Assembly (NCBI GenBank): GCA_947172415.1 | Contig: OX359194.1 | Location: 2,418,001 to 2,482,000, forward strand | Source of the DNA: Chondrosia reniformis | Taxonomy: Eukaryota; Porifera; Demospongiae; Chondrillida; Chondrillidae | Length of the DNA: 64,000 nt | Direction: 5' to 3' | Shown: positions 9,701 to 58,577 of the stretch, one piece after another | Layout: each line of letters begins with the position of its first letter | Numbering within the stretch: the stretch's first letter is position 1 | Notes under the pieces: model-generated | The model's database searches: none | What the model was told of the DNA's origin: nothing | What the model saw: the letters and a program-made list of their open reading frames with translations, nothing else | Position numbers and translations under genes: made by a program

Positions 9701-12700
9701 ACCACACACCTCTTTGTACCCTGAGCCCATCAAAGGCGCTGTCATTTTCTTCATCACTGCTTGAATATGCCACACCACTATAATGAGATGCAAATCAATA
9801 AAAAGGTACTGAAGCTATTCAAATGCAGCTTTGCATATACGTACGTATTGGAAGGTACGTACATATCATAGTAAACTCCTCCTTTACACTATATCTTTTA
9901 TTCTTATCCTCCTTCCTTCCTTCCCTCTCTCACTTACTCACTGCTAATTTCAGACTCTGATCTCTCAATCACTCACCCAATTACTTCCTCACTCACTCAC
10001 TTGCTCACTCTCCCTTACTCACTCCCTCACTCTCCCATTCATACATTCACTCCCTCACTCACGCCCTCACTCTCCCACTCACTCACTCCCTCATTCTCCA
10101 ATTCACACACTCCCTCCCTCACTTACCCACTCACTCCCATATTGCTCACACTCTCCCTACTACATACGTACATACCTCCTTATTATTCTGTCAATTACAA
10201 CATTTTCATAAACTTACTTTGCAGAGGGTTCAAGTGAAGCTGTTGAAAAGGGGACTCCCTTATCGGGCCACGGGTCATCACTCTCCTCCTCCTCGTCATC
10301 GGATATGGACTCATCAAACTGCTGAATCCTAGATGTACACGCACTCTGGTACCTTAATAGTGACTCACACTACAAAATGAGAAGAAGAGGAAGATGCAGA
10401 AAAACAGCAAATGTCAATAAAATCTGATTAGAATTAAAAAGCTTGGGGACAACTCCAAAACATCATTTGCACTATTTTAACTCAAAGAAGAATGCTGCAA
10501 AGTTCACAGCATGGAAACCCTTCCTGCCTATGAATATCGTTTACTGGCAAGTGTGACATGATCATGAGAAGTGGCAAACTAACGATTTCAGTTCCACTGA
10601 CCTGCTCCTCTTCGGCTGGGGTGTCAAGGGAGATGGAGGTTGGTTTATCAAATAAATTTGAGAGAGGTTCACTGAGAGTGTCCAACAATACACTGCCAAA
10701 GTCATCATCCATGTAAGTAACAAACTGGACACTGCGATATTCTGCATACTCCTACATACGTAAGTAAGTATCATCATAAGTATCATCATAAAGAAGGAGA
10801 ATCAGTTAGAGGATGGGTCTGAGTGGAAGGGGGTGGAGCGGGTGGGTCTGAGTGGAAGGGGGTGGAGTGGGTGGGTCTGAGTGGAAGGGGGTGGAGCGGG
10901 TGGGTCTGAGTGGAAGGGGGTGGAGTGGGTGGGTCTGAGTGGAAGGGGATGGAGCGGGTGGGTCTGAGTGGAAGGGGGTGGAGCGGGTGGGTCTGAGTGG
11001 AAGGGGGTGGAGTGGGTGGGTCTGAGTGGAAGGGGGTGGAGCGGGTGGGTCTGAGTGGAAGGGGGTGGAGTGGGTGATTCTGAGTGGAAGGGGATGGAGT
11101 GGGTGGGTTTTATATAAATGTATCAGTGAGTAAAATAACTTCTAATTTAGCTAGACTCAATCAAGTTGTGTCACTATTCTTACTCTTTCAAGTGAACCAG
11201 CAACACTTAGTGAGCCTTGAGTCTCAAAGTCATCTTCGCTGTCATCAAAAGAACTAGTTAGAGCTCTCTGCCCGCCCAGGTTTGCCTCATTGCGTCGATT
11301 GTTCTCAGCTAGTGGTCCAGTGAGGTAGGCAGTCCAATGCTTCCATACTTCCTCTCCACTGGCTGTAGGTCACATGACAGGAAATGAAAAAATGTTACAC
11401 AATACAGGAAACAAATAGTTATGAGCAGAACATACATATAATAAAGGTATCCAGTAAATATGATAAAAAGTTTTAAGAAGAATGTACATTCACATAACCA
11501 TACGACTATTAACTGCTACACTGCGTAAGATTAACAAGACTAGTCAAACAACTAGATAAATAGACAAGTACCTACGTACGTATGTAAATACATATTACAA
11601 TAACATGTGTGTCTAACACATTCCATAATTACTACTATTCTACTCTTCCACTGCCAGCAACAAGCAACAGAAAGGAAAGGAGTGTCATCAGTATATATCT
11701 TTCTGTACACATACGTACGTATGTATGTATAATACAAACACAATTTATGGTAACTCACAGTTCTGTACAAGATCTCTTAGCTGCGGATTGCTATCATGCC
11801 ACTTCTGAACAGAATTGACAATCTTAATTAAGTGACCCATGTAACCTTGACGATGACCTCCAGCTTCACTACAAGTGAATAAAGGACAAGTACTCATAAA
11901 TTGTTGACTTAATCTAGAGGAATGGTTGTAGAGATTTCCATTGGCCAGTACTCACATCATCTCATCATTCTTCTTGTGGCCGTCCAGCAGCCTCTGCAAC
12001 AAGTTACATTGTTGAAAGAGCTACACAGAGAAAACATGTATGACCCATTATGGAGAACCTCAAATAGGCAAACGGCTCAACCATGCACTGAGCTACCAAG
12101 TTGCCATTAGGCATTTGAGATTTGGTTGTCATGATTACATTGGGCAGCTGAGACTTGGTAGTAATGGTTACATTGGGCACTTGAGACTTGGTAGTAATGG
12201 TTACATTGGGCAGTTGAGACTTGGTAGTAATGGTTACATTGGGCAGTTGAGACTTGGTAGTAATGGTTACATTGGGCAGTTGAGACTTGGTAGTAATGGT
12301 TACATTGGGCAGTTGAGACTTGGTAGTAATGGTTACATTGGGCAGTTGAGACTTGGTAGTAATGGTTACATTGGGCAGTTGGTCGTTCTACTCATTGTCA
12401 TTTGTGCACAAAACATCCATGCTCTGTAGCACCAGTCATTATGAACAAGCTTTTGCTTTAATTGAGGTACTATTCACAAGCGGAAGTTTTATTGTACACT
12501 CAAAAATTTTATTCTATTTACGTAGTTTTGGTACATACGTAATGTACATGTATAGATAGGGTCCCTTACGTGGTCTTGTATTGAGACAGAATTCTCTTGG
12601 CTGAGTTGAGGGTTATGATCATATTCCAGCACAATATTAACACACTGCAACACCTGGGTATGCAGGAAGTTGTTCCACGGGTATTGAAAGAACAGGTCCT

Positions 12701-17951: not shown

Positions 17952-20061
17952 TTTCACTTTCTTTCAGTTGACCAGGTGTTGGCTGATGTAAGTGTGTCAG
18001 TGCTAGAACAGTTTGACAACATACACTCTGAAGCGAAGATGTAAACAAACTATAGGAGAGTGGAAAAGGAAGGGCAATAATTATAAGTATATACGTAAAT
18101 TATACATACATATATATTGTCTAGGTTCAAGGTGGAGTTTGTAGAAGAGAGACCTTTCCAAAGCACTGATGGTGAACCTGCACAGAAGTGTATGAAATGT
18201 TCAAGAAGTGGGGCATAGATGTGGATCGTGCATGAGCATTAGAGGGCAATATAATTCAACAATTGGATTGTTGGGTCGATTAAAATTGAGCTCATTTAAA
18301 ACCTATTAGTTATGTATTTTCAGCACTTTATAATATGCACATCTGACATCTTAGTCAGTTTGTCTTATCTCTTTACCTGTTGAGCAATTCAATCAGTAAC
18401 TGATCACTGTTAATGTTTATTGCAATATTCATATATACGTATATGATACAGACATATTATTTCAGCATACGTACGTATGCACATGTGAAACAATTCTGAG
18501 TAGGGAAAAAATAGGAGAACTCTAAGATCTAAAGCCGATCTTAAAGCATCAATATCATCATCATTAAACTCTGGATATTACCCCTGCCCACTCATGTCTC
18601 CTGAGGAGCGCAATGAGCAAATGGGCAGATCCGGAGTTCGCTTGATGGGAACCAGAGTTGATGATAATTCTGAGAAGGTCTGTATGTAACACGATCATTT
18701 GAATATGGATTTACTTTATACGTATGTACATAAATACATGGGTATACAGTAGGTGTACATACGTACGGACGTATATAAGTACATACATATGTAGGTATAA
18801 TAACTATTAGATTCCAAAGGCAGATGGAGATACGATTTAAACATTAACTTTGCCATGTGAGATACACTATTTTGTACTTCAGTAACAAGCACTATTTTAA
18901 CCTACTGCAAGATAAACTGATTGGCGATTACACTGCAACATGGAAATGAGTTACAGTGGCAGCTGGTAGTGCACACCCAATAGTCAATCCGTTGTGGGTG
19001 GTAATACTATAAGGTCTATTAGCTGACATTCTTGCACCTTATACGTATGTATGTACGTACATATATTAGTACAGTCCAATCATTACAATGTACGCAAGTC
19101 CTCAAACACTGTACTGTAAATCCAACTTAAATATTACTGTTTTTAGGCAATCCCTATTTTTGTTTTTCATTTTCGTGACTTGGTTGTATGGCTTCATGTA
19201 ACAGAATGATATACAGTCAAACCTAAGTATAATGAAATTTGGCTATAATGATTGCTTCGACTATAACAAACCTAAATGCTGTAAAGTGTTTTTTCCACAC
19301 AAATTTACACTACGTGGTATTACGATAGTGTACTTATAGATTCTGGAAGTACGTATGCATTGATTTGACATCATCATGCATCTTAGAAGGAAGACCTACG
19401 TACATACGTACGTAGAAAACTCTATATACGTATCTAGTTACTGCCTTCAATGCCATTTTTCTCCTTCAAGGACTTAGTGAAGCTACTATGTATTTTTCAT
19501 TTCTTTATAGTCCAATTTCTGAACACTACTAACAAAAATACGAACTTTTCACTGTACAAGTCATCTGCTTACAGGAAACTCATTAAATATGACATCATCT
19601 CGAACTGGACTATATTTACGCACTAACACTGCTTCACTAAATAACATCACTTTCTACTGATTGAAATGACAGTCCAACACTTAACATACAGCAGCAGTAA
19701 CAGCACAATAATAAAAGTAATTACTTACATCCCATGAACATGCAGTCTATACGTACATATTATGTACATACAACATATGTCCATATATATGTATTAAAGT
19801 GTTCTGTTCAATATAACAACACACTATATGTACGTATGTATGTACTTTAAATCAGCCACACCTACATACATACATACACATTCATTGCCTACAAAGGCAA
19901 ATTCCTTTGGAGCATTCACACAAAATATAATACAATAGCAGTTACAGAATACTCATTGTCTTCAATAGGAAACCGCTGCATATCGGTGTCACAGCTTGGA
20001 CAATGGAACTGAACAGACATCTCATCTGCTTAAGACTACATTAGTCATATATATAATATGG

Positions 20062-20455
20062 TATAGACGGAAATAATCTTTACATTTGATGTTCAAACTT
20101 TGCGAAGTTCACTTGAAGTAGATTGAAGCTCCATTGAAGTAGATCGAAGCTCCATTGAAGTAGATTGAAGCTCCATTGAAGTAGATTGAAGCTCCATTGA
20201 AGTAGATCGAAGCTCCATTGAAGTAGATTGAAGCTCCATTGAAGTAGATTGAAGCTCCATTGAAGTAGATCGAAGCTCCATTGAAGTAGCGCGAAGCTAG
20301 ATCTAAGTGGTTCGAAGTTGGTTTGAGTTTGCACCTGAAATATTTCCAAGTAATGATTTACGTTTCTTCAAAGTTTTTTCGAGGTTTTGAAGTACGTAGC
20401 TCGAAGTGCACTATGAAAGTTCAAACTTTGAATGTAAAGATTATATCCGTCTATA
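20062..20455. mobile_element. MITE carrying an internal 21-bp satellite
   Basis: The left end (tatagacggaaataatcttt) and the reverse complement of the right end (tatagacggatataatcttt) match over about 26 bp. About eight near-identical 21-bp units (tgaagtagattgaagctccat) fill positions 20113-20289. The element is about 394 bp, encodes nothing, and has no clear target-site duplication beyond a possible ta. Confidence 0.75.
20113..20289. repeat. 21-bp tandem repeat inside the MITE
   Basis: Units alternate between agattgaagc and agatcgaagc variants in a regular order, which suggests that the array grew by duplication of blocks of about three units. Open frames here are repeat artefacts. Confidence 0.85.
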
Positions 20456-33230: not shown

Positions 33231-36200
33231 TTAACCACTGTCACTCCTGTTACCAGGAGATGTAGCTTCTCTGGCATCTTCTACCAGCCTACCCACAATA
33301 GCTGCAGCTCCACTGACCACACTCTCACAAGTGACATGACAAACACTACCCTTTGACTTGCCTTTTTTGATTTTCTTTGCCTTCTTCTTGGGACAGGTTT
33401 CACTGGCTTGGTCTGGAAATGTATCAACGTAGTTAACATCTCTAGTGAGAGGGGCATCCTCTTTCCTGGATCTCTTGCCTAGTTTTGGAGCTGACTCAGA
33501 AGATGTGGCTATTATTGGATCATCTTTCTGAATTTCAATTGCAGTGTTCTTAACTTGCTCTGACTTCCTTTTTGACTTCTTAGCTTTCTGCCCTAACTGG
33601 GCATCGTCAGATGTAAACTTCTGTCTCTTTCCATGCAATTTTTCTGTGGCTGCTTCTCTATCTTCAGTTTTTCCATCCTTCTCAGTCGTCTTCTTTTTTT
33701 CAGACTTTTGAATAACTGACATTTTCGCTGGGGCATTGTCAGGAGCTTCTTGTTCTACATTCATTTTCCTTTTTTTCCTTTTTCTCTTTTCTCTAGGCAA
33801 ATCTTCTGTGGTTGTTCCCATTAAATCCTCAGATGGAATAGTGGCTGATTCAACATTTTCTACCTTCATAGATTTCATAATTCCCTTTTCTGTCTCATTG
33901 CCATCAAGTTTCTTTATGTTTGATCTGTCTAATGTTTCACTAGTGGATTTTAAGCTCTTTGGATTCTGTTTCGTGTCCTGGCTTTCTTCAGATAAAGGTG
34001 TCACATGAGCAGAGGAATCTTCTGGAGGTGGTGCTACTTCTTGAGGAGAAATGCAGAAGACTCCCTTTTTGTGCTTCTTCTTTTTGCCAACTCCTTTAGA
34101 CTCATCCTTCTTTGTATCCTCTCTCTCTTCAATATGAATTTCACCCATCCCTTTGCCATTACTCTCCTCCTTTTCAACTATATCTCTCCTAGTTTTGGCT
34201 CCCTCGCCAGGATCAACTGGAGTCTCCTTAGTAGCTTTTCTCTTCTTTTTCTTCTTTTTTCCTTCTTGCTTATCATTCGTTTCCATGGTACAATCTTCAA
34301 CTTGTGACTTTTCCTCCTTCTGGTCCACTGGGTAAGAACCTTTATGTTGAATAATCTTCTTTTCCTTTTTCTTCATTTTAATTTCTTTTTTTGGAATCTC
34401 ATCGCTAGACTTACTCACATTCTCCTTATTGACAGGGTTCTCCTCTTTAGAAATATCCACATTATCTACCTCCATCAATTCTTCTTGGAGGTTACTAATA
34501 ACTTCAGACTTTTGCAGCTTGCTAATCTTCTTCTTTGATTTGCTTGTTTTTGACTTTTTGCTAGAAGGAATCTCTTCCACATCAGAGACCTCAGTTAGTG
34601 CTTGCTCAGAGACAGCCTGCTGCTTGCCTTTTCTCTTTTTTTCTTTTTTGAAAACTTGCTCATCAGCTAGCACTTCTGGACTTTGTTCTTCCATGTCCTG
34701 TATTTCTGTTTTCTTTTTTTCTTTTTTCTTCTTCTTCCTTTTGTTATGAGATTCATCGGACAGGTCTATCGAATGCTCTGGGATAGTGTCTTCTGGTAAT
34801 TTGTCAGTTTCTTCCTTTTCCATCTCTCTTTCTGTCTTTTTCTTCTTTTTCTTGGCCATAACTGTGTCCCTTTCTTCTGTTGACCTGTCTGCCTTAGATA
34901 CCTCTACAGATTCCTTTGCTAGTTTTGATTCTAACACATTTTTGCTTTTTTGTTTTGATTTCTTCTTCTTTGGTTTAGTAACCACTTCTCCTTGGTCAGA
35001 CACATTTTCTGTGAGAGGTACATCTTCTTTCTTTAGTTTTTTCTTTTTTTCCATTTTGTTAGTTGCAACACTTTCTGATTGGCAATTTTCCACCTTAGCA
35101 ACTCCAAGGTCACTGCCACCATTTGAGTCATACTTTTGGGGAGTGTTTTTCTCCTTTTCATTTTCTTTAAAATCTGTTTTATCTGAAAGTGACAGAAACA
35201 CAGATTACATACATTTACTGTATATGGTGAAGCTTAGGAATATATACACTGATATAGGATATATTATAGTGTAACCCGGATAATCCGCCCCCACTTAATA
35301 CACCAAACACCAAATTCATTTGCATACTAGAAGTATCTATGTAATCCGCCAACTGCCAAATCCGCCATCCACCATTATTTTCTAGCCTCAATTGTACATT
35401 TATAGGTGTTTTCCACCTTCTTAATCAGTCACTTTCGTCAAGATTTTAATTATACAAAGTTAATCTAAGAGATGGCCTCTAAGCGTTCCAGACCTGACTT
35501 GACAATGGCCCAGAAGAAGAGATATGTGACTATAAGAGGAAGAATTCAACAGCACCGCTGGAGCAAATATCGTTTTAATTAGCTGGCTACAAATATTAAA
35601 TATTTTTGATGATAATCTGCCAAACTCAATATTCTGCCAAGAACAAATTGTGGTGGATTAACAGGCTTACACTACATATACACTGATATAGGATAATGTG
35701 GGTTAAATGTGCTTCCAATGGGTCACTCAATGTACCTTGTGATGATGACAGATCACATGAAGTGGCAGTTCCACTGAAGGCATCCCATAGCTGGTCCATC
35801 ACTTCGGCATTAAATACATGAAGAGAATTTCTTGCAAAATTCTAATATAATTGAGACACATTAAATAAATGACATGCATAAATCACATAAATATTTGAAA
35901 GTGACATCACAAATGGCAATTATCAAAAGTAACAATTTTCTTAGCTGTATCAGTCCTTATAGGATGGCATTTAAAAATGGCTACCATATACTAGCATGAA
36001 AAACAAATACATTTTTACTAACTTCAAATTTCTTCCTCTTTCTTGGTACATTATGGTATGATGCAATAGCTTCCATCAGTTGTGCAATCTTGGGGTCCAA
36101 TGAAGTGCTTTTAGCAGTGTCTTGAACTTTCTAAAAATAATTATATTCATAGACAATTAAAATAGATCAACAGGATTATAATGCATGACTGTCCTGAAGG

Positions 36201-41400: not shown

Positions 41401-44400
41401 TCTACAAAATTAATGTGTGCTAATTTCCACTCTATTAGCCCTCTGCTAGCGAGTTTCCAGTTGACAAAATTGCAATATTATATACTCTTCTAAATCTTTT
41501 GGTACTAAAAACAGGTTTTCGCTTAATACCTTCTTGTTGGACACTTATTTCTGAAAATGTAAATTTGTTACTTCAGTGCTACAATGACATTATTTCCTAT
41601 TTGTATCACAGCTCAGCTACAATCACCTGCAGTTCAATTATTTGCCATTATCTCCATGTGCATATCACGTGACCTATAGCTTCTCCCATCCACTTATTTT
41701 TTGGATATTGATCATGATTGTCATTATTACATGCCAAAGAGTAGTGAATAGTGCCCTCTCTAGACATGGAGCACTGTATATATACTTGTGGTTGATCTTC
41801 ATGTAGGTTTAGGTATTAGTATATACTTAAATATGGGAAAATCACAATTTAAAAATCAACAGTAAACTAGTTTATATTACGATGCACTTGTTCTTAGCCT
41901 TATGCAAATTGGTATTATTGAAATAGCAATTTATGACTTCTTTCTCTACTCAGATATGGTTCAAAGAATATGAAAATGCTGTAAAAAAGCGAGCATCTGT
42001 TATTGTTAATCTCGTCCACTGTTTACTGATTGGTTCCCCGTATGTGGGCAAGTCCTCTTTAAAGTATTTATTAGCCAACAATGAATCCAAGATCATCCAA
42101 CAAAGCACAGGACCACTTGAGAGACCGGAAGTGTTGACAGTTACCTCTGAGACATACCTGGTAGATGAATCCATCTGGAAGCTAGTGACAGATGCAGAAA
42201 TGGGAGAATCAGTGCGAAAGGCTATTCAAGACACTTTATATGATGCAAAAGAGACCTTACCTGTAATCACAGCAACCAGTGACAGACAAACAGATACAAC
42301 TGCAACAGCAACTGTTCAAGATCTCCCACCAACTTCCACCGACCAATCCCATTCACATACAGATAGACAATCCCGAGCTAGTATAAATCCACAATCATCT
42401 AAATCTACTTCTTTTGCAAAAATCAAATATTCTTCAGAGAAAAATGAAATCTCTCCTGATGATCTCACCATTGTCCATGAATCAAATCAGCCAATAGACC
42501 CTATCTCCTCTCTAGTTCAAGAGTACAAGCTATTTGTACAGCATACCAATAAAGGACAGTTGGAATTAGAAAACAAGACCTTTGTTCATCTCCTAGATAC
42601 AGGAGGTCAGCCTGTGTTTCAAGATGCTCTGCCATTTTTACTTAACCTACCAGCCACATACATAAATGTGTTCAATGCTTCCAAGGACCTCAGACAACCA
42701 GTAGAAGTGACCTACCGTCCAGACAGCCAAACCACTCAAAGTGTTCCATGCTCTCAGAGTGGTCTAGAAATGATGCAGTACCTACTATCCAGTGTATACA
42801 CTATGTCCTTCAAGAGACCTCATCTACCTGAAGGAGTCACACCCCCAGGTTTCCGAATCTTTATGGTTGGCACATTCAAGGACAAGATCATGGAAGCAGA
42901 CAATTCTGAAACTATTCTTCAGGACATTGAAAATCACATGAAAAGGTTATCTTCAAAGCCATACTTCAAGAACATTGTCCAAGCAGATAAAAGTGTTGCT
43001 TTTCTCATCAACAATTTAATGTGCTTGCCCGGCAGTGGAGGCTGTTCTAGTGAAGAAAAGCAGTCCATAAACAAACTTCGTTCACTCATCTCAACAGACA
43101 AGGGACACTTCAAGGTGAAAATGCCACTGGCCTGGCTCTTACTAAAGACCTTTACAAGCTCCATTTCACAAAAGTTTTTCCGTTTTGAAGACTTGAAGAA
43201 TCTCTGCCGTCAATGTAACTGCATAGACCAGGATGGGGCAGATGGGCAGTTTCAGGCATTGCTGGGACTATTTCACATGTTGGGGCTTTATGCTTACTTT
43301 GAGCTAAAGGAGGTTCCACAAGAGAAGAACTGGGTCTGCACTGATGTAACCTTCCTCTACAAGGAGCTGGCAAAGATACTTACAGTAGAATTTAACTCCA
43401 ATCTTCATTGTCCTGCAAGTAAAAAGTTTCAAGCCTCTGGTATCATTAGATTTGATGACCATCTTAATCTCTTTGAGGAGGTTGGAGTGAGTAAGGACGT
43501 CCCAACAGAGTGGCTCCTACAAGTTCTTCACAGTCTGGGTCTCTCTGCCAAAGTGAGATCAGATCCTGATGTGTATTTCATGCCAATTGTGTTGCCTTTT
43601 GGAAACACTAAGATTCCTCAAGACTCAGCAGTGGACAACCTTTGCCTTGCCTTTGACTACAAAGACCATTCACTGTCAGAGGACCTGCTGGACATTCCAA
43701 GAGGAATCTTCTGCAAGTTGGCAGTTTACTTGATAAATAGGAAGCCTGGAGGTATTCCTAAATATAAAGCCTGTCCAGGTGCTTCAGATAAAGTGACAGT
43801 AAAGTTTACACGCAACAACCTAGAACTTTACTTGCTAGAGAGACCTGGTAGGATTGAGGCAGCACTCTTCTGCAAAGAGTACTTTTTACCGAACACTGAG
43901 TCAGCTTCACGCATTAAAGCACTTCATGAGGAGTGTGTAGCATTAAGGACTGATTTAGAGGAAGGTATCAAAACAGCTTGCAAGGCACTCCTTGGTGAAG
44001 CCTTTTTGAATGCAGTTCATCTCCAGGTTGGGTTTCTGTGTGAGTGTGGCAAAGACAACTCTCATTTAGCTGCAGTCAAGAGTGGCTCATTTCTGTGTTC
44101 TCTGTCTGAGGACTTGATGCCCTTAAAAGGGAAGAGAAGACTTTGGATGGAACCAGTTGTGAATGTAAGTTTACTGTAGAATGGGATTGACAGGATCTCA
44201 CCAGGTCACATCTTATACACCTTTAGTCATGTTGAATGAGTATGTTCCTAAACTAGTATATGCAAAATGTAACTCTAAGAGGTTTAGTATCTCATATGTA
44301 TATAGGCTAGACAATATGATACACTGTCTGTTGTTTTAAAGTATATTGTGTGTTCTGTAGTGTTCACTGCAACCTTTATCTTCTGGATATTTGGTAATCA

Positions 44401-44868
44401 AGGATGTAAAAGCTACTACTAAGCCAAGTTCATCTACTAGCAGTGAGTCATTATTTATATTATACACTCCACACTACTACTGTGTAGTCAGTTGTGCCTT
44501 AAATATGCTATATGAAGAATAATTGAATTGATGTGTGTAATGGTTTTCCTCTAATCCATTCCTTTGCAGTTAGCTCAGCTGATGTAGTGCAAATTCTTGG
44601 TTACAAGGTAGAAGCCTCTTGGCGTCACTTTGGAGTCCATCTTGGTGTGGACAGCTTTGTCTTGGACACTATTGAGCTCCACAAACGTGGTGACCCCAGG
44701 AATTGTCTTTCTAGTGTAGTTGAGAAATGGCTTCCTTTTACTGATGGAACTGGTGAGAAGGAGAGGAGCTGGGAAATGATTTTACAAGCAGTAGAAGTGT
44801 CCTGTTCTGGTGTTGTGTATGATGAGATCAAAGAGAAAATTGAACAACATCATTCACCAGCCACTTGA
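38413..44868 (+). CDS. Ankyrin - Roc - COR - Death domain protein (ROCO family), copy 1
   Basis: Exons: 38413..38502, 38810..39004, [39194..39274 optional], 39374..39475, 39579..39680, 39778..39879, 39983..40084, 40180..40281, 40867..40953, 41021..41092, 41954..44164, 44361..44442, 44570..44868. All ankyrin exons are phase 0-0. Without the optional exon: 1181 residues. Residues 1-30 are a T/G/V-rich repeat. Each regular 102-base exon encodes one ankyrin repeat, alternating NSLHIAA and NTLHRAS types. The large exon starts a Roc GTPase: G1 GSPYVGKSS (K351), G3 DTGGQ (533), G4 TFKD (625-628), with a long Ser/Thr/Pro-rich insert between G1 and G3. A COR-like region follows (FHMLGLYAYF, GIIRFDD, YFMPIVLPFG). 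The last exon is a death domain (SSADVVQILG, WRHFGVHLG, SWEMILQAV). The layout is that of DAPK1 without the kinase. Function in death or immune signalling is inference. Confidence 0.8.
39194..39274 (+). other. Shortened ankyrin exon (B0), open and phase-compatible
   Basis: A 27-codon exon candidate whose 3' half matches the B-type ankyrin exons (HKMDPKTV) while its 5' half is unrelated. It has an acceptor (attag) and a donor like the others and is also open in copy 2 (49872..49952), but is broken in copy 3. Whether it is spliced in is unknown. Confidence 0.4.
40410..40472 (+). other. Possible alternative terminal exon of ankyrin-ROCO copy 1
   Basis: After a good acceptor (cactttcag), 20 codons and a TAG follow in the phase left by the preceding ankyrin exon. 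Using it would end the protein after the ankyrin repeats. An identical exon lies at 51896..51958 in copy 2; copy 3 has lost this region. Its use is speculative. Confidence 0.25.
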
Positions 44869-49045: not shown

Positions 49046-52000
49046 ATGAGTACTACTGAAAGTAAAGCTACAGTAGGTAGAGGTGGTGTCACTAGAGCTA
49101 CAGTAGGTGGAGGTGGTGTCACTAGAGCTACAGTAGGTGGAGGTGATGTCACTAGAGCTACAGTAGGTGGAGGTGATGTCACTATGGTATATGATAGGTG
49201 ATGTCACTATATGATAATTTACATACAATTTACATTACAACAAATAACTTATGGCCATTTTGACTGACACTCACTCACTTTTTAATCAGTCACATATAGG
49301 TCATGATTAGATTATATATGCTAAATGGTACTACTGTATGGTAATAAAGTGTATGCAACAATGCCATAAATTTATAGAGATTATCTTGGTCACACAGAAC
49401 AGTAGTAAACATTAGTATATCATGCATATACAGTACACATAAACAATTTTCTTAATAATTTATGCTCTTTCTTGTTAACATGTCTACAGGAAGCTCTAAA
49501 GAAAGCTGTAAAATCTGGAAATAAGTCTTCAGTTAAACAGCTGCTTCACAGTCATCCTAATCTGTTGTCATGGAGAGATGCTAGAGGATGGAGTTGTCTA
49601 CACTGGGCAGCTGGTTTTGGTAGTACTGATATAGTAAAGTGTCTGCAAACTGAGTATCATATGGATCCATTGGATACTGCTAATGTAAGCAAACATCACA
49701 TTCCTACAGACTTTGTGATTACAGCAGAGATGTATGTATAGATGTTCTGTAACCCTTTGATGTCAAATGATAAAAACATGTTTTAACTAGCTGTCTTGAT
49801 ATTAATGGTCACACTGTATCATAAGTACTAACAGTAAACAAGTATCAAGGTCCTAGATACTTTAGAATTAGAATTATAAACAGTATAACATTTTGAGCCA
49901 ATTTATGTATCTGGTGATGGTACACAAAATGGATCCAAAGACTGTGAAGAAGGTACGACATGTACTGATGTGCTTTAGCAAAGTGAACCCTGTAATGTGT
50001 AGTTGAACTTTAATTGTAAATGTGTTTCTTAATACTGATTTGCATATAGAATGGATCAAACTCACTGCCTATAGCAGCTGTTAATGGTCAGTTTATTGTT
50101 GTTAAGTACTACATTGAAGAGTATAAAATGGATCCTCAGACTGTGGATGAGGTGAGGTGGGAGGATTAATGCACCATCAAAGAAGCAGTTACAGTAGTAC
50201 ATATGATGTAGGCATGTTCCTCTATTGATCATGATGGTATTTCTATTACTTTAGGATGGATGGAATACATTACATTATGCATCAAGATCATGTTCTCTTG
50301 AGATAATTAAGTATCTGATGGTGAAACACAAAATGGATCCAAAGACTGTGACTAAGGTACGACATGCACTGATGTGCTTTAGCAAAGTGAACCCTGTAAT
50401 GTGTAGTTGGACTTTAATTGTATATGTGTTTCTTAATACTGATTTGCATATAGGATGGGGCAAATTCACTACATATAGCAGCTGGTAATGGTCAGTTTAT
50501 TGTTGTAAAGTACTACATTGAAGAGTGTAAAATGGATCCTCAGACTGTGGATGAGGTGAGGTGGGAGGATTAATGCACCATCAAAGAAGCAGTTACAGTA
50601 GTACATATGATGTAGGCATGTTCCTCTATTGATCATGATGGTATTGCTATTACTTTAGAATGGATGGAATACATTACATTATGCATCAAGATCATGTTCT
50701 CTTGAGATAATTAAGTATCTGATGGTGAAACACAAAATGGATTCAAAGACTGTGACTAAGGTAGGACAGGCACTGATGTGCTTTAGCAAAGTGAACCCTG
50801 TAATGTGTAGTTGAACTTTAATTGTAAATGTGTTTCTTAATACTGATTTGCATATAGAATGGATCAAACTCACTGCTTATAGCAGCTGCTAATGGTCAGT
50901 TTATTGTTGTCAAGTACTACATTGAAGAGTGTAAAAAGGATCCTCAGACTGTGAATGAGGTGAGGTGGGAGGATTAATGCACCATCAAAAAGGCTGTTAC
51001 AGTAGTACATATGATGTAGGCATGTTCCTCTATTGATCATGATCCTATTTCTATTATATTAGAATGGATGGAATACATTACATAATGCATCAGCGTCAGG
51101 TTCTCTTGAGTTAGTTAAGTATCTGGTGGTGAAACACAAAATGGATCCAAAGACTGTGACTAAGGTACAACATGCACTGATGTGCTTTAGCAAAATGAAC
51201 CCTGTAATGTGCAGTTGCACTTTAATTATAAGTGTTTTTCTGAACACTGATTTGCATATAGGATGGATCAAATTCACTACATATAGCAGCTGCCATTGGT
51301 TGGTTTATTGTTGTAAAGTACTACATTGAAGAGTGTAAAATGGATCCTCGGATTGTGGATGAGGTGAGGTGGGAGGATTAATGCATGATCAAAAAGGCTG
51401 TTACAGTAGTACATATGATGTAGGCATGTTCCTCTATTGATCATGATCCTATTTCTATTACTTTAGGATGGATGCAATACATTACATTATGCATCACATT
51501 CAGGTTCTCTTGAGATAGTTAAGTATCTGATGTTGAAACACAAAATGGATCCAAAGACTGTGACTAAGGTACAACATGCACTGATGTGCTTTAGCAAAAT
51601 GAACCCTGTAATGTGTAGTTGAACTTTAATTGTAAATGTGTTTCTGAATGCTGATTTGTATATAGGATGGGGCAAATTCACTACATATAGCAGCTGCCAT
51701 TGGTTGGTTTATTGTTGTAAAGTACTACATTGAAGAGTGTAAAATGGATCCTCAGACTGTGAATGAGGTAAGGTGGGAGGATTAATGCACCATCAAAGAA
51801 GTAGTTATACCTAAGTAATATGTATTGTCAGAACTAGAGCTTTTCATTAAATACCTTAAATTACTTAACTAAAAGACACATTTGTTCACTTTCAGATGAT
51901 GATGCACTTAAAAATGTCTATCGTTTTGGCACTTTGTTGTATTCTCAAAAATATGTAGCTATAGAACTCTATTGCATTAGCATTGTAAGTATCATTGCAT

Positions 52001-55000
52001 GAGAATTTGACTTTACCCAATTATGGGAGTGATGAGATAAGATAATTAATTGTAAAATCTTGTGACTGTCTATAACTGCTGAACTGCCTAAATTTTGTAA
52101 TAATACAATTAAGATTTGAGGTATATATTCCTGCCACTGATGGTTACTGGTAAAGGTATTTTGTAACTAAAATTATAGTATGCTTGTTTGTATATACTGA
52201 TCAGTTGTTTAAAAGTTTTCTTTTATTTGCATTAGTTATCCACATATTTTACTGTAATGTATGTGTTCCAGATTTATTCTACTTAATAAAGTGCGTAGAG
52301 TGTATAACAACTTTAGCAATCTAATGGCTAGATATGAAAGGACATGTTTTTTATTTGTCTATAGGATGGTAAAACTGCACTTGATTTAGCTAAAGAGGAG
52401 AATCATCTCCAAATTATGGAATATCTATCACAATCTCCTGTTAATAAGCATGTAAGTTTTATTATCCACTAATTGTCTAAAATGACAGTAATCTACATAC
52501 ATATGTGTATTGTTATAGGATGAACCAGCTACATTGCTTAAGGAGGAAGAGGACACTGATAAGGTTGACCTGTCCTCTACTCAAAACATAGTAAGTCGCA
52601 TATTATTAATCACATCTACATCCAGTGCTCAATGCTTATAATGATGTCTGTAGACTTTTAATCTTAAAAGAGCTAGCATATAAAGTAGAAACCTGGCCTT
52701 CGCTGGCTTGTTTCAATTTACCTTGGCTCAATGGAACATAATTTTTGAATCCCATACTATGGTGTAGGAATAGTATATGCCATTTTTGTGTAACATCATT
52801 TACACATCATTAATTATTGAGTAAGAAGTTTCAGGAATATGTAAGACTGTCAGCTGTTGCATAATTCCAACTTCATGCAGCATATACACTGTTTACGCAT
52901 GGGTGTATAAACAGATGCATGGGTCTTCCTTATATGTGAACGGTACCAATTATCAAGGACCAATTACCTGCAATCATTGGAAGAATCTCCCTAAATGGGA
53001 TTTAAAGGGAAATTCTCTCTATTCCGGCAAGGCATGGCAATCTGGGCATTGTAATTCCAAAAATCTTATGCGTCTCTTCATCTAAAGGCTTCCTCTTTAA
53101 TAACTGCTCCACTGGTCTCAGCAATTTAGAGAATCCCTATATGTATATGGCGCCTTGCCATCCACACGGCACAACCGGACCTAACAGCACAGCTACTGAC
53201 TGAAGTATGTCCAAACATTGCAGTAGAACCAACACTGCAGCCACTATCAGGTAAACTTTTCAATACAACAGCACCATCAGAGAGAATAATGCCAGACTAG
53301 ACAAGGCACAAGACTTTTGGGACAACAGAGAAGCATTAGGGCATTCAATTCCTTTTCCCTATCTAACAACCAAACCATGCACAAGGAATGCCTGCTACAG
53401 AAAACATGAAAAGGAGAAAATATGAAAATATGAAAGGAGGATTATCGATGTAGAGCATGGCACTTTTACTCCACTTGTGTTTTCAACCAATGGTGGCTGG
53501 AGCCCTTCAACCAGTCTTTTTCAGAATATTGGCTGCCTTGATTGCTAAGAAGAAATCACAGCATTATCATATAACAATTGACTATATCAGGTGCCAAGTC
53601 TCCTTCTCATTGATTAACTTAGCGATAATGTGCCTCAGGGGTGCAAGGTCATCTTTTCATTCACCAGCATGTGACTATAGTGATGATCCGCTGGACTTAC
53701 TGTATAGTGATTAAAAGTACTGTGTCATATAATCGCATCTGGCACACAGGGAACACGTAAGCGTCTAAGTACAAGAAATACACATATGAAATACACATAT
53801 GTGTTTAACACCTAATTATTTATGGCTGCCATATATTATGATTAGGTGTTAACACGTACGACAGATTCCAACTATGGAACTATCATGTTTACTGGTGCGA
53901 AAACGAGCCTTCAATTTTCTACATAACGTACGGAATGCCTTTGAAACAAACATTTGCCAGATTTCCAACTTGGATTAACACCTGCCATCGTTTACTTGCA
54001 CGTGTAACATGTGTGTACATATTTTACACACATGTTACATGACAGACGCTGGGTGCCTGCCTCAGTACTTTTAATCACAACCTCCTCTCAAATCTCCCCA
54101 CAAGTGCCAACAAATGCTGATGCCCAACTCTCATATTTTGTACACTGAAAACAATTCCATATTGATATGGTGTTCTATGACATTTTTGAATACATTGTAT
54201 AAGTACAAGGAACAGAGCACTGATATATAGAATAATTTGGCTATAGTGAATATATAATATGTAGATTGTAAACAAACTTACGTGTTTTCCCAAACTGGTT
54301 TGTATGTACATCACTATATACATATGAATAGTAATTATAATTATTACTTATATTTCTATCCTTCAGACTGATACAACGTTAATGGCTAATCCAACTTGGA
54401 TTGAGGACTACCAGAAGGCTATTGATAAGCGTGGATCAGTTATAGTTAAGGTAGTTCGTGCTATTTTCTGTGGATCCCCAGAAGTGGGAAAGTCCTCACT
54501 GAAATACAACCTTGTCTATGGCAAGTCAAAGGAGGTTAAGATTAGCACTGGTGTTGCAGAATCTCCAGAAGTGGTTATTGCCACCAACTACCTTGCCACA
54601 GGAAGTGATGCAGACTGGATTCCAGTTGATGAAGAGGTGATGGAGACATTGGTACGCACATGTACTAATCAGGGAGATTATGAGGAGCGCTCTACTTACC
54701 CAACACCAAGCTTTCCTCCTGATGAAGAAGATCCTGAAGTCGAAGCAATTTCTTCCACACAGGTCACTCCATCTCCTCTTCCCATTTCAGAGTCTACACA
54801 GGACAGACCAATAACCCCAACCACCGAACCAGTCAGGTTACCTGATGATGCTCAAGAAGACTCCACTGTTGCTCCTCAAGTGAAGCGACTACAGGATATT
54901 CGAGATGAAGTGTTGGGAAAGCAAGATCTTAGCGATCTTAATCTGAAAGAAGCGACCTTTATCCACTTCTTGGACAGTGGAGGTCAGCCATCTTTTCAAG

Positions 55001-57279
55001 ACTCCCTCCCCTTTCTCCTCACAATGCCTTGTACTTACATTCAAGTCTTCAATGCATCAGAAGATCTGAAGGAAGAAGCCAATATGACCTTTAGATCCCA
55101 AGATGGTCACACCTACAAGCTCCCACCAAATCATGGCCTTACATCCATTGATCTAATGTTGAGATCGTTCTCCAGCATCTACACTGCTGCCTCAAAGCCA
55201 ATGGATCCGAGGATCAAGGATATACTGAGGAGTCAACCACAGCTACAAATATTTCTGGTGGGCACCTTCAAGGATAAGCTCTTTTCATTACTGAGAGAAG
55301 ATCAGGAAGCAAGATTGGAATCAATCGTCACCCAACTAAATCAATTAGGAGGAAAGCCTTATCACACCTTTATAGTGAAGAATGATGTACCCTCTAGACG
55401 TACACTGGCTGATTCTCTCAAAGACAGCCATGATCCCCCAGAGTCTGTTTCATGGCCTTTTATCATCAACAACATGATGAGCAAAGATGGACCTCCTTCA
55501 GAAGAGGATCTTGCGACTCTTAAAGCACTTAGATCCAAAATCCTCAGTGCTTCAAAGAAGAGATCCACCAATGGCTTTGAGCTAGACATGCCACTGACGT
55601 GGTTTCTCCTTTACGTCATCACCTGCAAGAATGAACAAAAGTTTATTCGATACGACGACTTGAAGGAGTTCTGTAACCAAAGCAGCTACCTGGATACTGA
55701 AGATGCTGATCGCCAGTTTGAAGGAATGCTGACCCTATTTCACATGCTTGGGTTCTACGCATTCTTTGACCACACTGAAACCTCACGAGAGTGGATCTGC
55801 ACTGATATCACAGCTCTGTATGGTGAATTTGCAAACCTGCTGACTGTGCACTTCAAGGATCCACTCTCTTTTAATGGTGATGCAGCCCGGTCATTCCACT
55901 GTTCTGGCATCATTCGTCAAGCAGATTTTGAAGAGCTCTTCAATGAATTAGGCATCAACGAAGCAATTCCCAAAAAATGGCTGCTGGAGGTCATTCACCA
56001 CTTAGGACTAGCAGCAAAGTACCAATCAGATCCTGAAGAGTACTTCATGCCTCTAGTCTTGCCCTATGGGAAAGTGAAGGTTCCCGAACGTACATTAGTG
56101 GAGAATCTCTGCTTTGCATACAAATACCTTGGAAGCCATGGCAGGATTGACCTCCTTGACCTACCCAGAGGCCTATTCTGTCGCCTTGTGGTACAGCTCT
56201 CAGAGCAAGTTAAGGGAAGAAACCTTAAGCCTCAGACTGCAAACTGTGATCAGACTACAGCTGCCTTCAACTCAGGTGGTCTCAATGTCTACCTGATGGA
56301 GAAACCAGGTCGATTAGAGTTACAAGTTGAGTGCAGCAGTTTATTCTATCCAGAGAAGAGTCCAAGTGATCGTTACTCAGAGTTGCATGAGCGATGCAAA
56401 GAAATTCGCAACGTTGTCCACTCCACTATTCAGGAAATCAGTTCCAATATGATGGACGGAATGCCTCCAGCCAAGAAACCACAGCTTCAAATTGGATTCC
56501 TGTGCAGATGTGACTCCACCAAACCAGCTCACCTGGCTCTTGTTGAAGAGGACAAGGCTAATGAATGCCTAGTCTGCCAACTTGAGAAAAGGAGGCCATT
56601 TGATGAAGAAACTAGAATTTGGTTTGAGCCAGTCAGCAAAGGACAATCTGATGCTGCAGGTACGTACAGTGATCATTTTTAGTTCTCTTGGAATTTACTA
56701 TATACGTAGTAGTGTCTCATGATCATTACGTTAATTTATTGTTACTTTTCATGTTTTTTTGTTTTATTCACTGATTATAGAAGTATATAAGTAATTAAAA
56801 ACCGAGATGGGAATATAGTATTAATTAATACTATATTCCCATTCTTAAGTAATAAATGGGATGTACTTTCTCACTTAACATACTCAGCTGCTATATTTAT
56901 TTTAAATCTCCAAGTGAAAATATTTATATTAAATTTGTTTATATACTTATGTACAGTAATTTTACTTTCTATTATAGTACTCAAGAAACAGGAAATTAGA
57001 GCATTTCTTAAAGATGTTGGCACTCACTTGATGCAAAATTGTGACATGAAAATCCTCTATGTTGATCTCCACTTAAAGAATGCGCTTTCTGATGAACAAC
57101 TAGAAATATTATCACAATGTTCTTCAGTTAAAGAGATCAATAAAAGGATTTACGAGTTCTTCTTCAATGATCCTTCAGCCCATAAGCTTCAGACACTTTC
57201 TGAAGTAATCAAGACCTACCCTTCTTATGAAAACAATATAGAACTAGCTACAAAAATTGACAAATTTGTAAGTCAATAA
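49046..57279 (+). CDS. Ankyrin - Roc - COR - CARD-like protein (ROCO family), copy 2
   Basis: Exons: 49046..49186, 49490..49684, [49872..49952 optional], 50050..50151, 50255..50356, 50454..50555, 50659..50760, 50858..50959, 51063..51164, 51262..51363, 51467..51568, 51666..51767, 52365..52451, 52519..52590, 54367..56659, 56978..57279; 1335 residues without the optional exon. Nine regular one-repeat ankyrin exons replace the five of copy 1, and the N-terminal ten-residue repeat is present four times. The Roc part has G1 GSPEVGKSS (K513), G3 DSGGQ and G4 TFKD; COR motifs FHMLGFYAFF and YFMPLVLPYG match copy 1 at roughly half the positions. The last exon is not a death domain: FLKDVGTHLMQNCD, ALSDEQLEIL and LQTLSEVIKTY follow the six-helix pattern of a CARD. 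The CARD call rests on pattern only. A LINE fragment sits in the intron before the large exon. Confidence 0.78.
51896..51958 (+). other. Possible alternative terminal exon of ankyrin-ROCO copy 2
   Basis: Identical partner of 40410..40472: acceptor, 20 codons, TAG in the phase of the preceding ankyrin exon. Confidence 0.25.
53160..53715 (+). pseudogene. LINE-type retrotransposon fragment, broken
   Basis: Scattered frames on the plus strand match the C-terminal region of non-LTR reverse transcriptase ORFs common in sponges and corals: VEPTLQPLSG near 53220, then HGTFTPLVFSTNGG near 53456, IRCQVSFSLINLA and LRGARS near 53640. Frameshifts and stops separate them. It lies in the intron between the ankyrin part and the Roc exon of copy 2, where unit 1 has no such insertion. 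Confidence 0.6.
54004..54038. repeat. Perfect 14-bp inverted repeat
   Basis: Arms gtaacatgtgtgta and tacacacatgttac with a 7-base loop, in the same intron as the LINE fragment. Confidence 0.8.
56807..56842. repeat. Perfect 36-bp palindrome before the CARD-like exon
   Basis: Each half is 18 bases (atgggaatatagtattaa and its complement) with no spacer. It lies in the intron (56660-56977) that separates the shared GTPase exon from the exchanged C-terminal exon of copy 2. Confidence 0.92.
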
Positions 57280-57287
57280 TTTTAATT

Positions 57288-57315
57288 GAGCTGGGAAGTT
57301 ATTCTACAAGCAGTT
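57288..57315 (+). pseudogene. Fossil of a death-domain exon
   Basis: gagctgggaagttattctac and the following bases match the copy 1 death-domain exon (gagctgggaaatgattttac, coding SWEMILQAV) at about 24 of 28 positions. It lies just after the stop of the CARD-like exon and runs into the shared 3' UTR. It shows that copy 2 once carried the death-domain exon. Confidence 0.7.
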
Positions 57316-57729
57316 AAAAATTTAACAAAACATATTCCATTTCAGTTCCACAGTCAGCAAAGCAACTGAACTAGATCTTCAGTGATCTTGTTGGTCAAGT
57401 GATCTGTCTACAGTTGGTTCATCTCATAATGTAAACTTCTTTAAAGTCCTTAACCCTTCACCTAATACTACACCATTGACCACCATTGTATATATTGTTC
57501 TGTACATGTACATGAGTTATATTAGTCACTGAATATCGATCAGTTAACTATGATGATCGTGATATCAAATTTTGAGTGTGTTTTAGTATCGATATGTTTG
57601 CAGATGCATGAATCTGATTATATGTCACATGACATAACTTGTCTACTAGCTAATGAAGTGAAGTGTACGAGCGTTCTTTTTTTGTGTTCATCAGATTTTT
57701 ATTTCTATTTCTGTTTACTTTTTTCCTTT

Positions 57730-58577
57730 CTTCTTCTTATTTTTGTTATGAGATTCATTGAACAGGTCTATTGAATGCTCTGGGATATAGTGTCTTTTGA
57801 TAACTGATTAGGATCTGTTTCTTCCTTTTCCATCTCGCTCTGTCTTTTTTTCTTTTTCCTGCAGGCCATAACTGTGTCCCTTTCTTCTGTTGGCCTGTCT
57901 GCCTTAGGTATACGTAACTCTACAAATTCCTCTGCTAGTTTTGACTTTAGATTTGATTCTAACACATTTTTGTTTTTTTTGTTTTGATTTCTTCTTTGGT
58001 TTAGTTACCACTTCTCCTCGGTCAGACACATCTTCTGTGAGAGGCACATCTTCTTTGTTTAGTTTTTTCTTTTTTTCCTTTTTGGTAGTTGCAACACTTT
58101 CTGATTGGCAAGTGGTTCAATGAAGTACTTTTAGCAGTGTCTTGAACTTTCTAAAAATAATTATATTCATAGACAATTAAAATAGATCAACAGGATTATA
58201 ATGCATGACTGTCCTGAAGGTACAGAACATCTCCACAGTTCATGCACAAGATTAGGACAATGGATATTATATTAACAATACATTAAACATGTACCAAGGA
58301 CTTAATTGAAGTTTCCTACTAAGAAGATCTAATTAATGATCTAATTAAATCATTACTATATAATATTGGTACATGCCCCATTTGGAAATGGTTACTTCAA
58401 GGAGCCCAATAGAATTCATACAAAGGGAGACTGTACAGACACAAGACTATAGGCCTTTAACACTTACCTGAAGCCACTGCTCCTGTTTCCTCACTCCCTT
58501 TGTGGGCGTGTCCACAGTGGGTCCCTTGTACAGCTTCCCTTGGTACTTCTCCCCCTCAGAGATACAGGAGGTATGCA
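57730..58577 (-). pseudogene. LYAR copy 3, remnant
   Basis: An exon 5 fragment (about 57740-58112) is joined by a deletion directly to the start of exon 3 (about 58120-58151), so exon 4 and most of exon 3 are gone. Exon 2 (58468..58577) is intact. Exon 1 with the zinc fingers is lost and its place is taken by an ATT microsatellite. It cannot make a LYAR protein. Confidence 0.82.

Follow-up and report, generated by a model that had tools for sequence, protein, structure and literature searches.

Among described systems, DAPK1 offers a close architectural comparison, as its layout combines a kinase, ankyrin repeats, ROC-COR and a death domain, according to the excerpted text of PMC4917528. In brown algae, repeated shuffling of LRR exons is described for the ROCO family, members of which are proposed immune receptors (PMC11378527, in its accessible part). 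For the NLR-B30.2 genes of zebrafish, the available portion of PMC4852459 reports that gene conversion keeps the NACHT exon alike within groups, that N-terminal repeat types are shuffled between groups, and that B30.2 is converted. Death-like domain expansions are known from marine invertebrates including the sponge Amphimedon (PMC8195603) and amphioxus (PMC2575513), and large death-fold repertoires have been noted in sponges and amphioxus (PMC8195603, PMC2575513, PMC12909245), again as given in partial text of these sources.

The locus described here, from the sponge Chondrosia reniformis, shares features with each of these systems. The order of ankyrin repeats, ROC-COR-like exon and death-type exon in the first of two tandem gene copies is that of DAPK1 as excerpted (PMC4917528), whereas the second copy ends in a CARD and the ROC and COR matches fall below the Pfam cut-offs; no DAPK1-type kinase was noticed by eye upstream among stop-to-stop frames of at least 65 residues, a survey in which short exons could be missed. 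With the brown-algal genes it has in common a ROC-COR family undergoing exon shuffling, but it is the recognition repeats that are shuffled there, in the accessible account, and the C-terminal adaptor that is replaced here (PMC11378527). As in zebrafish, domains occupy single exons and one exon stays alike within groups, although the zebrafish exon encodes NACHT rather than ROC-COR and the available portion of PMC4852459 describes no remnant of a replaced death-fold exon. The many lineage-specific death-fold architectures with ankyrin repeats or nucleotide-binding domains of Amphimedon and amphioxus are likewise comparable, with the difference that architectures were surveyed there, as far as the partial texts extend, and a single exchange is traced to its breakpoint here (PMC8195603, PMC2575513). 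Exon exchange in ROCO and NLR genes is already known, and what is new is a traced exchange with the remains of the old domain, together with signs of recurring turnover; among the titles and abstract openings surveyed in the open-licence literature, none concerned this locus or the fossil of a death exon following a CARD. Shuffling of death-fold adaptors is usually inferred from the architectures of old genes. Here, a single genome shows both the displaced and the incoming domain as well as a related source family; the 3' breakpoint is visible in it, the 5' one is confined to an intron, and unconverted death-type paralogues next door serve as controls.

The window, i.e. the whole analysed stretch of 64,000 nucleotides (C6:2418001-2482000), belongs to an assembly of 117 Mb in 15 contigs. 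A tandem array on C6 begins in the window with a death-type unit (u1, copy 1) and a CARD-type unit (u2, copy 2) and extends past it through u3 (copy 3, death-type, C6:2485992-2486285, 89% protein identity), u4 (CARD-type, C6:2496405), a truncated unit and u6 (CARD-type, C6:2517934), amounting by blastn to three complete CARD-type and two death-type units. Some 400 kb from the array, C6 holds a second cluster, with three further death-type exons and the same 3' flank. The truncated CARD-type unit (C6:2503269-2504851) is 97% identical to positions 52000-53586 of the window, and its match ends in the intron before the ROC-COR exon.

In copy 1, as for all features given below on the forward strand, an open ROC-COR-like exon of the recipient type (41957-44167), ending in phase 0, is followed by a small linker exon (44361-44442, splice sites placed by eye), for which a counterpart in copy 2 was not seen, and by the death-type terminal exon (44570-44868; phase 1 entry, frame from 44572, stop at 44866-44868). 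The ROC-COR-like exon matches Pfam COR-A (E 8.8e-4) and Roc (E 0.028), both under the cut-off, and its protein, searched singly against the PDB, returned two weak matches only (best E 0.21). The terminal exon belongs to a family of 10 members, two of which match Pfam Death (best E 0.004, under the cut-off); copy 1's own exon, scanned alone, does not match Death and gives only CYTH (E 0.13). Profile comparison of the family with five Pfam-Death matches of this genome yields an hhalign P of 2e-4 and a probability of 46.7%, against a P of 0.19 for the CARD family as control, while in the PDB a glycosyltransferase (E 0.29) precedes the RIPK1 death domain (E 1), and the single-sequence AF2 model of the copy 1 exon is poor (pLDDT 49). 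The death-domain ending originally noted for copy 1 is confirmed as a terminal exon at 44570-44868 of putative death type, all Pfam Death matches of its family lying below cut-off.

Copy 2 opens with a 5' flank common to the death-type copies, containing the last ankyrin part and introns (52000-52843, by blastn); of two 34-residue ankyrin exons scanned, one reaches Ank_3 at 22.6 bits (cut-off 22.3) and the other stays under the cut-offs (best E 2.1e-4). Next come an intron stretch with recurring pieces, matched over its length in CARD-type units only (52844-54101), a ROC-COR-like exon of the donor type (54370-56659), the last intron (56660-56977), whose first part is common to donor-type genes, and the CARD-type terminal exon (56978-57279; phase 1 entry, frame from 56980, stop at 57277-57279). 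Pfam COR-A (E 9.8e-5) and Roc (E 0.11) again match the ROC-COR-like exon under the cut-off, and its single protein found no match in the PDB; by eye, the ROC-COR exons carry a P-loop-like GSPxVGKSS and a D(S/T)GGQ motif. The terminal exon is predicted to form a six-helix death fold closest to CARD structures and is unrelated in profile to the copy 1 exon family (hhalign P 0.54), as originally proposed. Scanned alone it has no Pfam match, and 5 of 20 family members match PF00619 at E up to 1, the best at E 7e-5 with 23.2 bits against a cut-off of 23.9, two of these five scoring better with TNFAIP8. In the PDB, the family profile places the BCL10 CARD on top (E 3.4e-4 to 2.3e-3), followed by two designed proteins (0.047 and 0.097) and CARD8 (0.17). 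As the terminal exons of both copies are entered in phase 1, with splice sites placed by eye, and each brings its own stop, either can end the protein.

The two copies are alike up to 52840 (84% over 890-904 blastn columns) and again from 57305 (84%), and between these points nothing compares at the level of about 84% except a short piece of the death exon, hereafter the fossil (57288-57314). Similarity of copy 2 to u3 ends at 52843 on the 5' side. The ROC-COR-like exons of the two copies share 35% protein identity, and the one in copy 2 matches other contigs. Copy 2 resembles genes on contig C10 from 54102 onwards, or from 54311 in the case of the same-CARD C10 gene, whose similarity stops at 57286, with a single base left before the fossil. 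Since the ROC-COR exon of copy 2 is also foreign to copy 1, the replaced block is larger than one exon: bracketed by the breakpoints, it measures about 3.2 to 4.4 kb and comprises some upstream intron, the ROC-COR exon, the last intron, the CARD exon and the stop plus seven more bases. The replacement of a death-type by a CARD-type adaptor thereby stands as first claimed, whereas its confinement to a single exon does not, and an exon-only swap is rejected. Likewise, the stretch of copy 1 covering ROC-COR and linker was found elsewhere on C6 only in u3 (blastn, lengths of at least 60), so that a history in which the last intron merely gained a CARD and the copy 1 ROC-COR exon was retained is also rejected. 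The 5' breakpoint falls within an intron (52843 to 54102), and the 3' one at 57286/57288, within the death exon. The stretch 52844-54101, which holds or borders the 5' breakpoint, consists in part of recurring pieces and is matched over its full length only in u4 and u6, and by half in the truncated unit, among the listed matches, which are lower bounds; it therefore does not narrow the 5' breakpoint further.

Based on these comparisons, we propose that an ankyrin/ROC-COR/death gene of the C6 tandem array very probably received a ROC-COR/CARD block and that the chimaera was then amplified. The block would have entered from a dispersed ROC-COR/CARD family through illegitimate or ectopic recombination, displacing from the recipient its ROC-COR and linker exons together with the initial two thirds of the death exon. 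Amplification of the chimaeric unit would then have placed death-type and CARD-type copies side by side. In the resulting protein, ankyrin recognition and a GTPase-type switch would be kept, and a CARD rather than a death-domain assembly would be nucleated.

The presumed source family is represented by at least 18 near-full-length copies of the copy 2 ROC-COR exon (three on C6, 12 on C10, two on C8 and one on C14), a count that is a lower bound, the other 17 being 93-98% identical to copy 2 in DNA. Their terminal exons fall into at least four CARD subtypes. Among the 15 listed copies outside C6, a single one (C10:1319297) carries the subtype of copy 2, while 11 carry a second subtype, 28-31% identical to copy 2 in the seven read at full length, the other four having been read in part (C10:1384721, 1463808, 1496078 and 1531042). 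A third subtype is found at C10:1483230, a fourth adjoins the ROC-COR exon and precedes the third at C10:1441001, and no CARD was found within the 441 bases examined at C10:1412927. Behind the third-subtype exon at C10:1483230 (C10:1482000-1483235) come a duplicate of the last 68 bases of the ROC-COR exon, an intron and then a second-subtype CARD whose frame remains open, with three residues missing. The same arrangement occurs near C10:1439 kb (C10:1438600-1441010), where, in a partial reading by eye, the second-subtype exon lacks bases at its start and has a disturbed frame. Both loci appear to derive from a single event and would thus represent, apart from the death fossil, one further case of an exon behind an exon, in which we infer the order of age of the two CARD exons.

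The intron before the terminal exon mostly tracks the CARD subtype. Identity is 88-90% when u4 or u6 is compared with the same-CARD gene of C10, and the introns of five genes with the second subtype, located on C10 and C8, agree at 90-99%. Across these two sets it drops to 62-76%, the range also obtained when u4, u6 or the same-CARD C10 gene is set against the C14 gene. Two genes depart from this pattern: on C14 a second-subtype CARD is combined with an intron only 59-63% identical to those of the five, and the copy 2 intron is 61-77% identical to all others, in part owing to about 108 bases without counterpart (near 56820-56927). Of the ten ROC-COR copies compared, one, at C8:1787 kb, has two stops in a frame that the remaining nine keep open. 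Ankyrin pieces of copy 2, searched at the C10, C8 and C14 loci with four query pieces, one of them out of frame, gave one weak match (40% identity, E 0.007).

Domain shuffling of the kind usual for immune-type multigene families, with no special machinery and with the fossil as a young breakpoint that has yet to be erased, is a rather probable account. Such shuffling is known from zebrafish NLRs (PMC4852459), brown-algal ROCO genes (PMC11378527) and innate genes of amphioxus (PMC2575513), as far as the partial texts of these sources go, and genome-recurring pieces lie in the intron beside the 5' breakpoint. Against it stand the four or more terminal subtypes within one ROC-COR family and the two double-CARD loci of C10, a variety that suggests more than one accident, though special machinery is unnecessary. 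A more far-reaching reading is that gene conversion keeps a constant ROC-COR platform uniform while the CARD-type exon at its end undergoes repeated replacement, the old effector sometimes being left as a decaying remnant and the platform also overwriting death-type genes of another array. We regard this swappable-effector reading as tentative and rather less likely than not, since independence of the two C10 double-CARD loci is improbable and the intron of the C14 gene departs from its CARD subtype.

A second alternative concerns the spread of the block within the C6 array, which may have been entered once, with gene conversion then copying the block onto several death-type units, each CARD unit thus having a recipient of its own. 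We consider this conceivable though the less probable course. In its favour, the three CARD units do not group in the tree of the 3' flank, where u4 joins the death-type u3 (99/97) and u6, with less than half of its alignment row occupied and an atypical composition, lies near u1 and the second cluster; moreover, the ten ROC-COR exons compared are 94-99% identical, while the adjoining introns of many of the same genes are at 59-76%, as if the exons had been homogenised. However, the CARD/fossil junction is equivalent in all three CARD-type units, that of u2 being four bases shorter, their ROC-COR exons form one clade (support 100/100), and tandem duplication followed by conversion of just the flank fits equally. 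Entry of one block followed by amplification remains our preferred history, to which the split of the CARD units in the flank tree requires later conversion or crossing-over, or repeated spread of the module, to be added. In the ROC-COR tree, the same-CARD gene of C10 is not sister to the C6 copies, and both trees together call for subsequent conversion or unequal crossing-over in the array and for CARD and ROC-COR exons to have moved separately. C10:1318864 was rejected as the exact donor, as it shares the CARD exon and intron but does not hold the closest ROC-COR exon.

The direction of the exchange is indicated by the fossils. A comparison of 3' ends that includes copies beyond the window shows that, in u4 and u6, the CARD stop is succeeded by residues 66-98 of the death exon, which continue without break into the shared 3' flank. 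These fossils start at the base equivalent to 44766 and pass the old death stop into the flank, corresponding to 44766-44868 of copy 1, of which copy 2 retains only the first 27 bases; they measure 103 bases in u4 and 100 in u6, which lacks three bases, and each contains one in-frame stop (TAA in u4, TGA in u6). Compared with the functional u1 and u3 exons they show 90-91% identity, against 96% between those two exons themselves over this part. Relative to u1, u3, u4 and u6, copy 2 has a deletion of 105-116 bases just 3' of its piece, beyond which the 3' flank common to the death-type copies of both C6 clusters resumes (57317-58111). Five close death-type exons (86-100% protein identity) are present, two in the array and three in the second cluster. 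A death-type ancestor explains both the shared 3' flank and the fossil, which the reverse does not, and the sequences thus support the direction from death to CARD, with the death type as the older state in the C6 array. The reverse course, with the CARD type ancestral and the death type derived, is very unlikely: complete CARD-type units outnumber death-type units in the array, three to two, but what follows the CARD stop is only the decayed last third of the death exon, and in two distinct clusters this 3' flank adjoins death exons that are complete. The second of these clusters leads us to reject the reverse course.

That the fossil of copy 2, which matches 44766-44792 at 24 of 27 positions, is a chance match or a short dispersed repeat has next to no probability, since, although its blastn E-value within the window alone is only 0.005, its score is reached by none of 1000 dinucleotide-preserving shuffles and none of 2000 random window 37-mers, and longer continuous fossils exist in u4 and u6. 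The original prediction of a fossil better than chance is thereby upheld against all 3000 controls, with its length corrected from 28 to 27 bases and its distance from the stop from nine to eight.

The ROC-COR frames of u2, u4 and u6 are without stop, and dN/dS of this exon is 0.28-0.38 in six pairs of the three C6 units with two C10 genes. The CARD exon of copy 2 gives 0.20-0.28 against four relatives (11 to 31 changes per pair), and all ten pairs span 0.20-0.68 with few changes. We infer that proteins are made and would act as ankyrin-sensing, nucleotide-switched scaffolds that seed death-domain or CARD assembly through their C-terminal domain. Death-fold domains engage in homotypic interactions, and on this basis the swap would alter the downstream partners. 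A direct test is possible of whether the change from death domain to CARD re-routes the sensor to different partners.

Several further observations were made. The same CARD exon, at 90% DNA identity over the exon only, occurs in another gene context at C7:6016802-6018205, behind another helical frame that is CARD-like by eye. A genome search with the CARD-type exon gave at least 150 matches (336 candidates, of which 150 were scored), compared to 25 places detected by the Pfam CARD model, and profile surveys may miss much of this family. Within the 3' flank of copy 2, 57706-58111 holds a fragment 85% identical to window positions 34701-35085, which lie in a lysine-rich frame of 657 codons on the reverse strand (33231-35204); hence, a piece of a neighbouring gene seems to have been carried along with the duplication unit. 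Tandem arrays with periods of 29, 33 and 21 bases are located in the window at 10750-11155, 12039-12434 and 20061-20354, respectively. Finally, the extra bases of the last copy 2 intron (about 108, 56820-56927), without counterpart in u4, u6 and two aligned C10 introns, are overlapped at their start by a perfect 36-base self-complementary stretch (56807-56842), and possibly represent a small palindromic mobile element.
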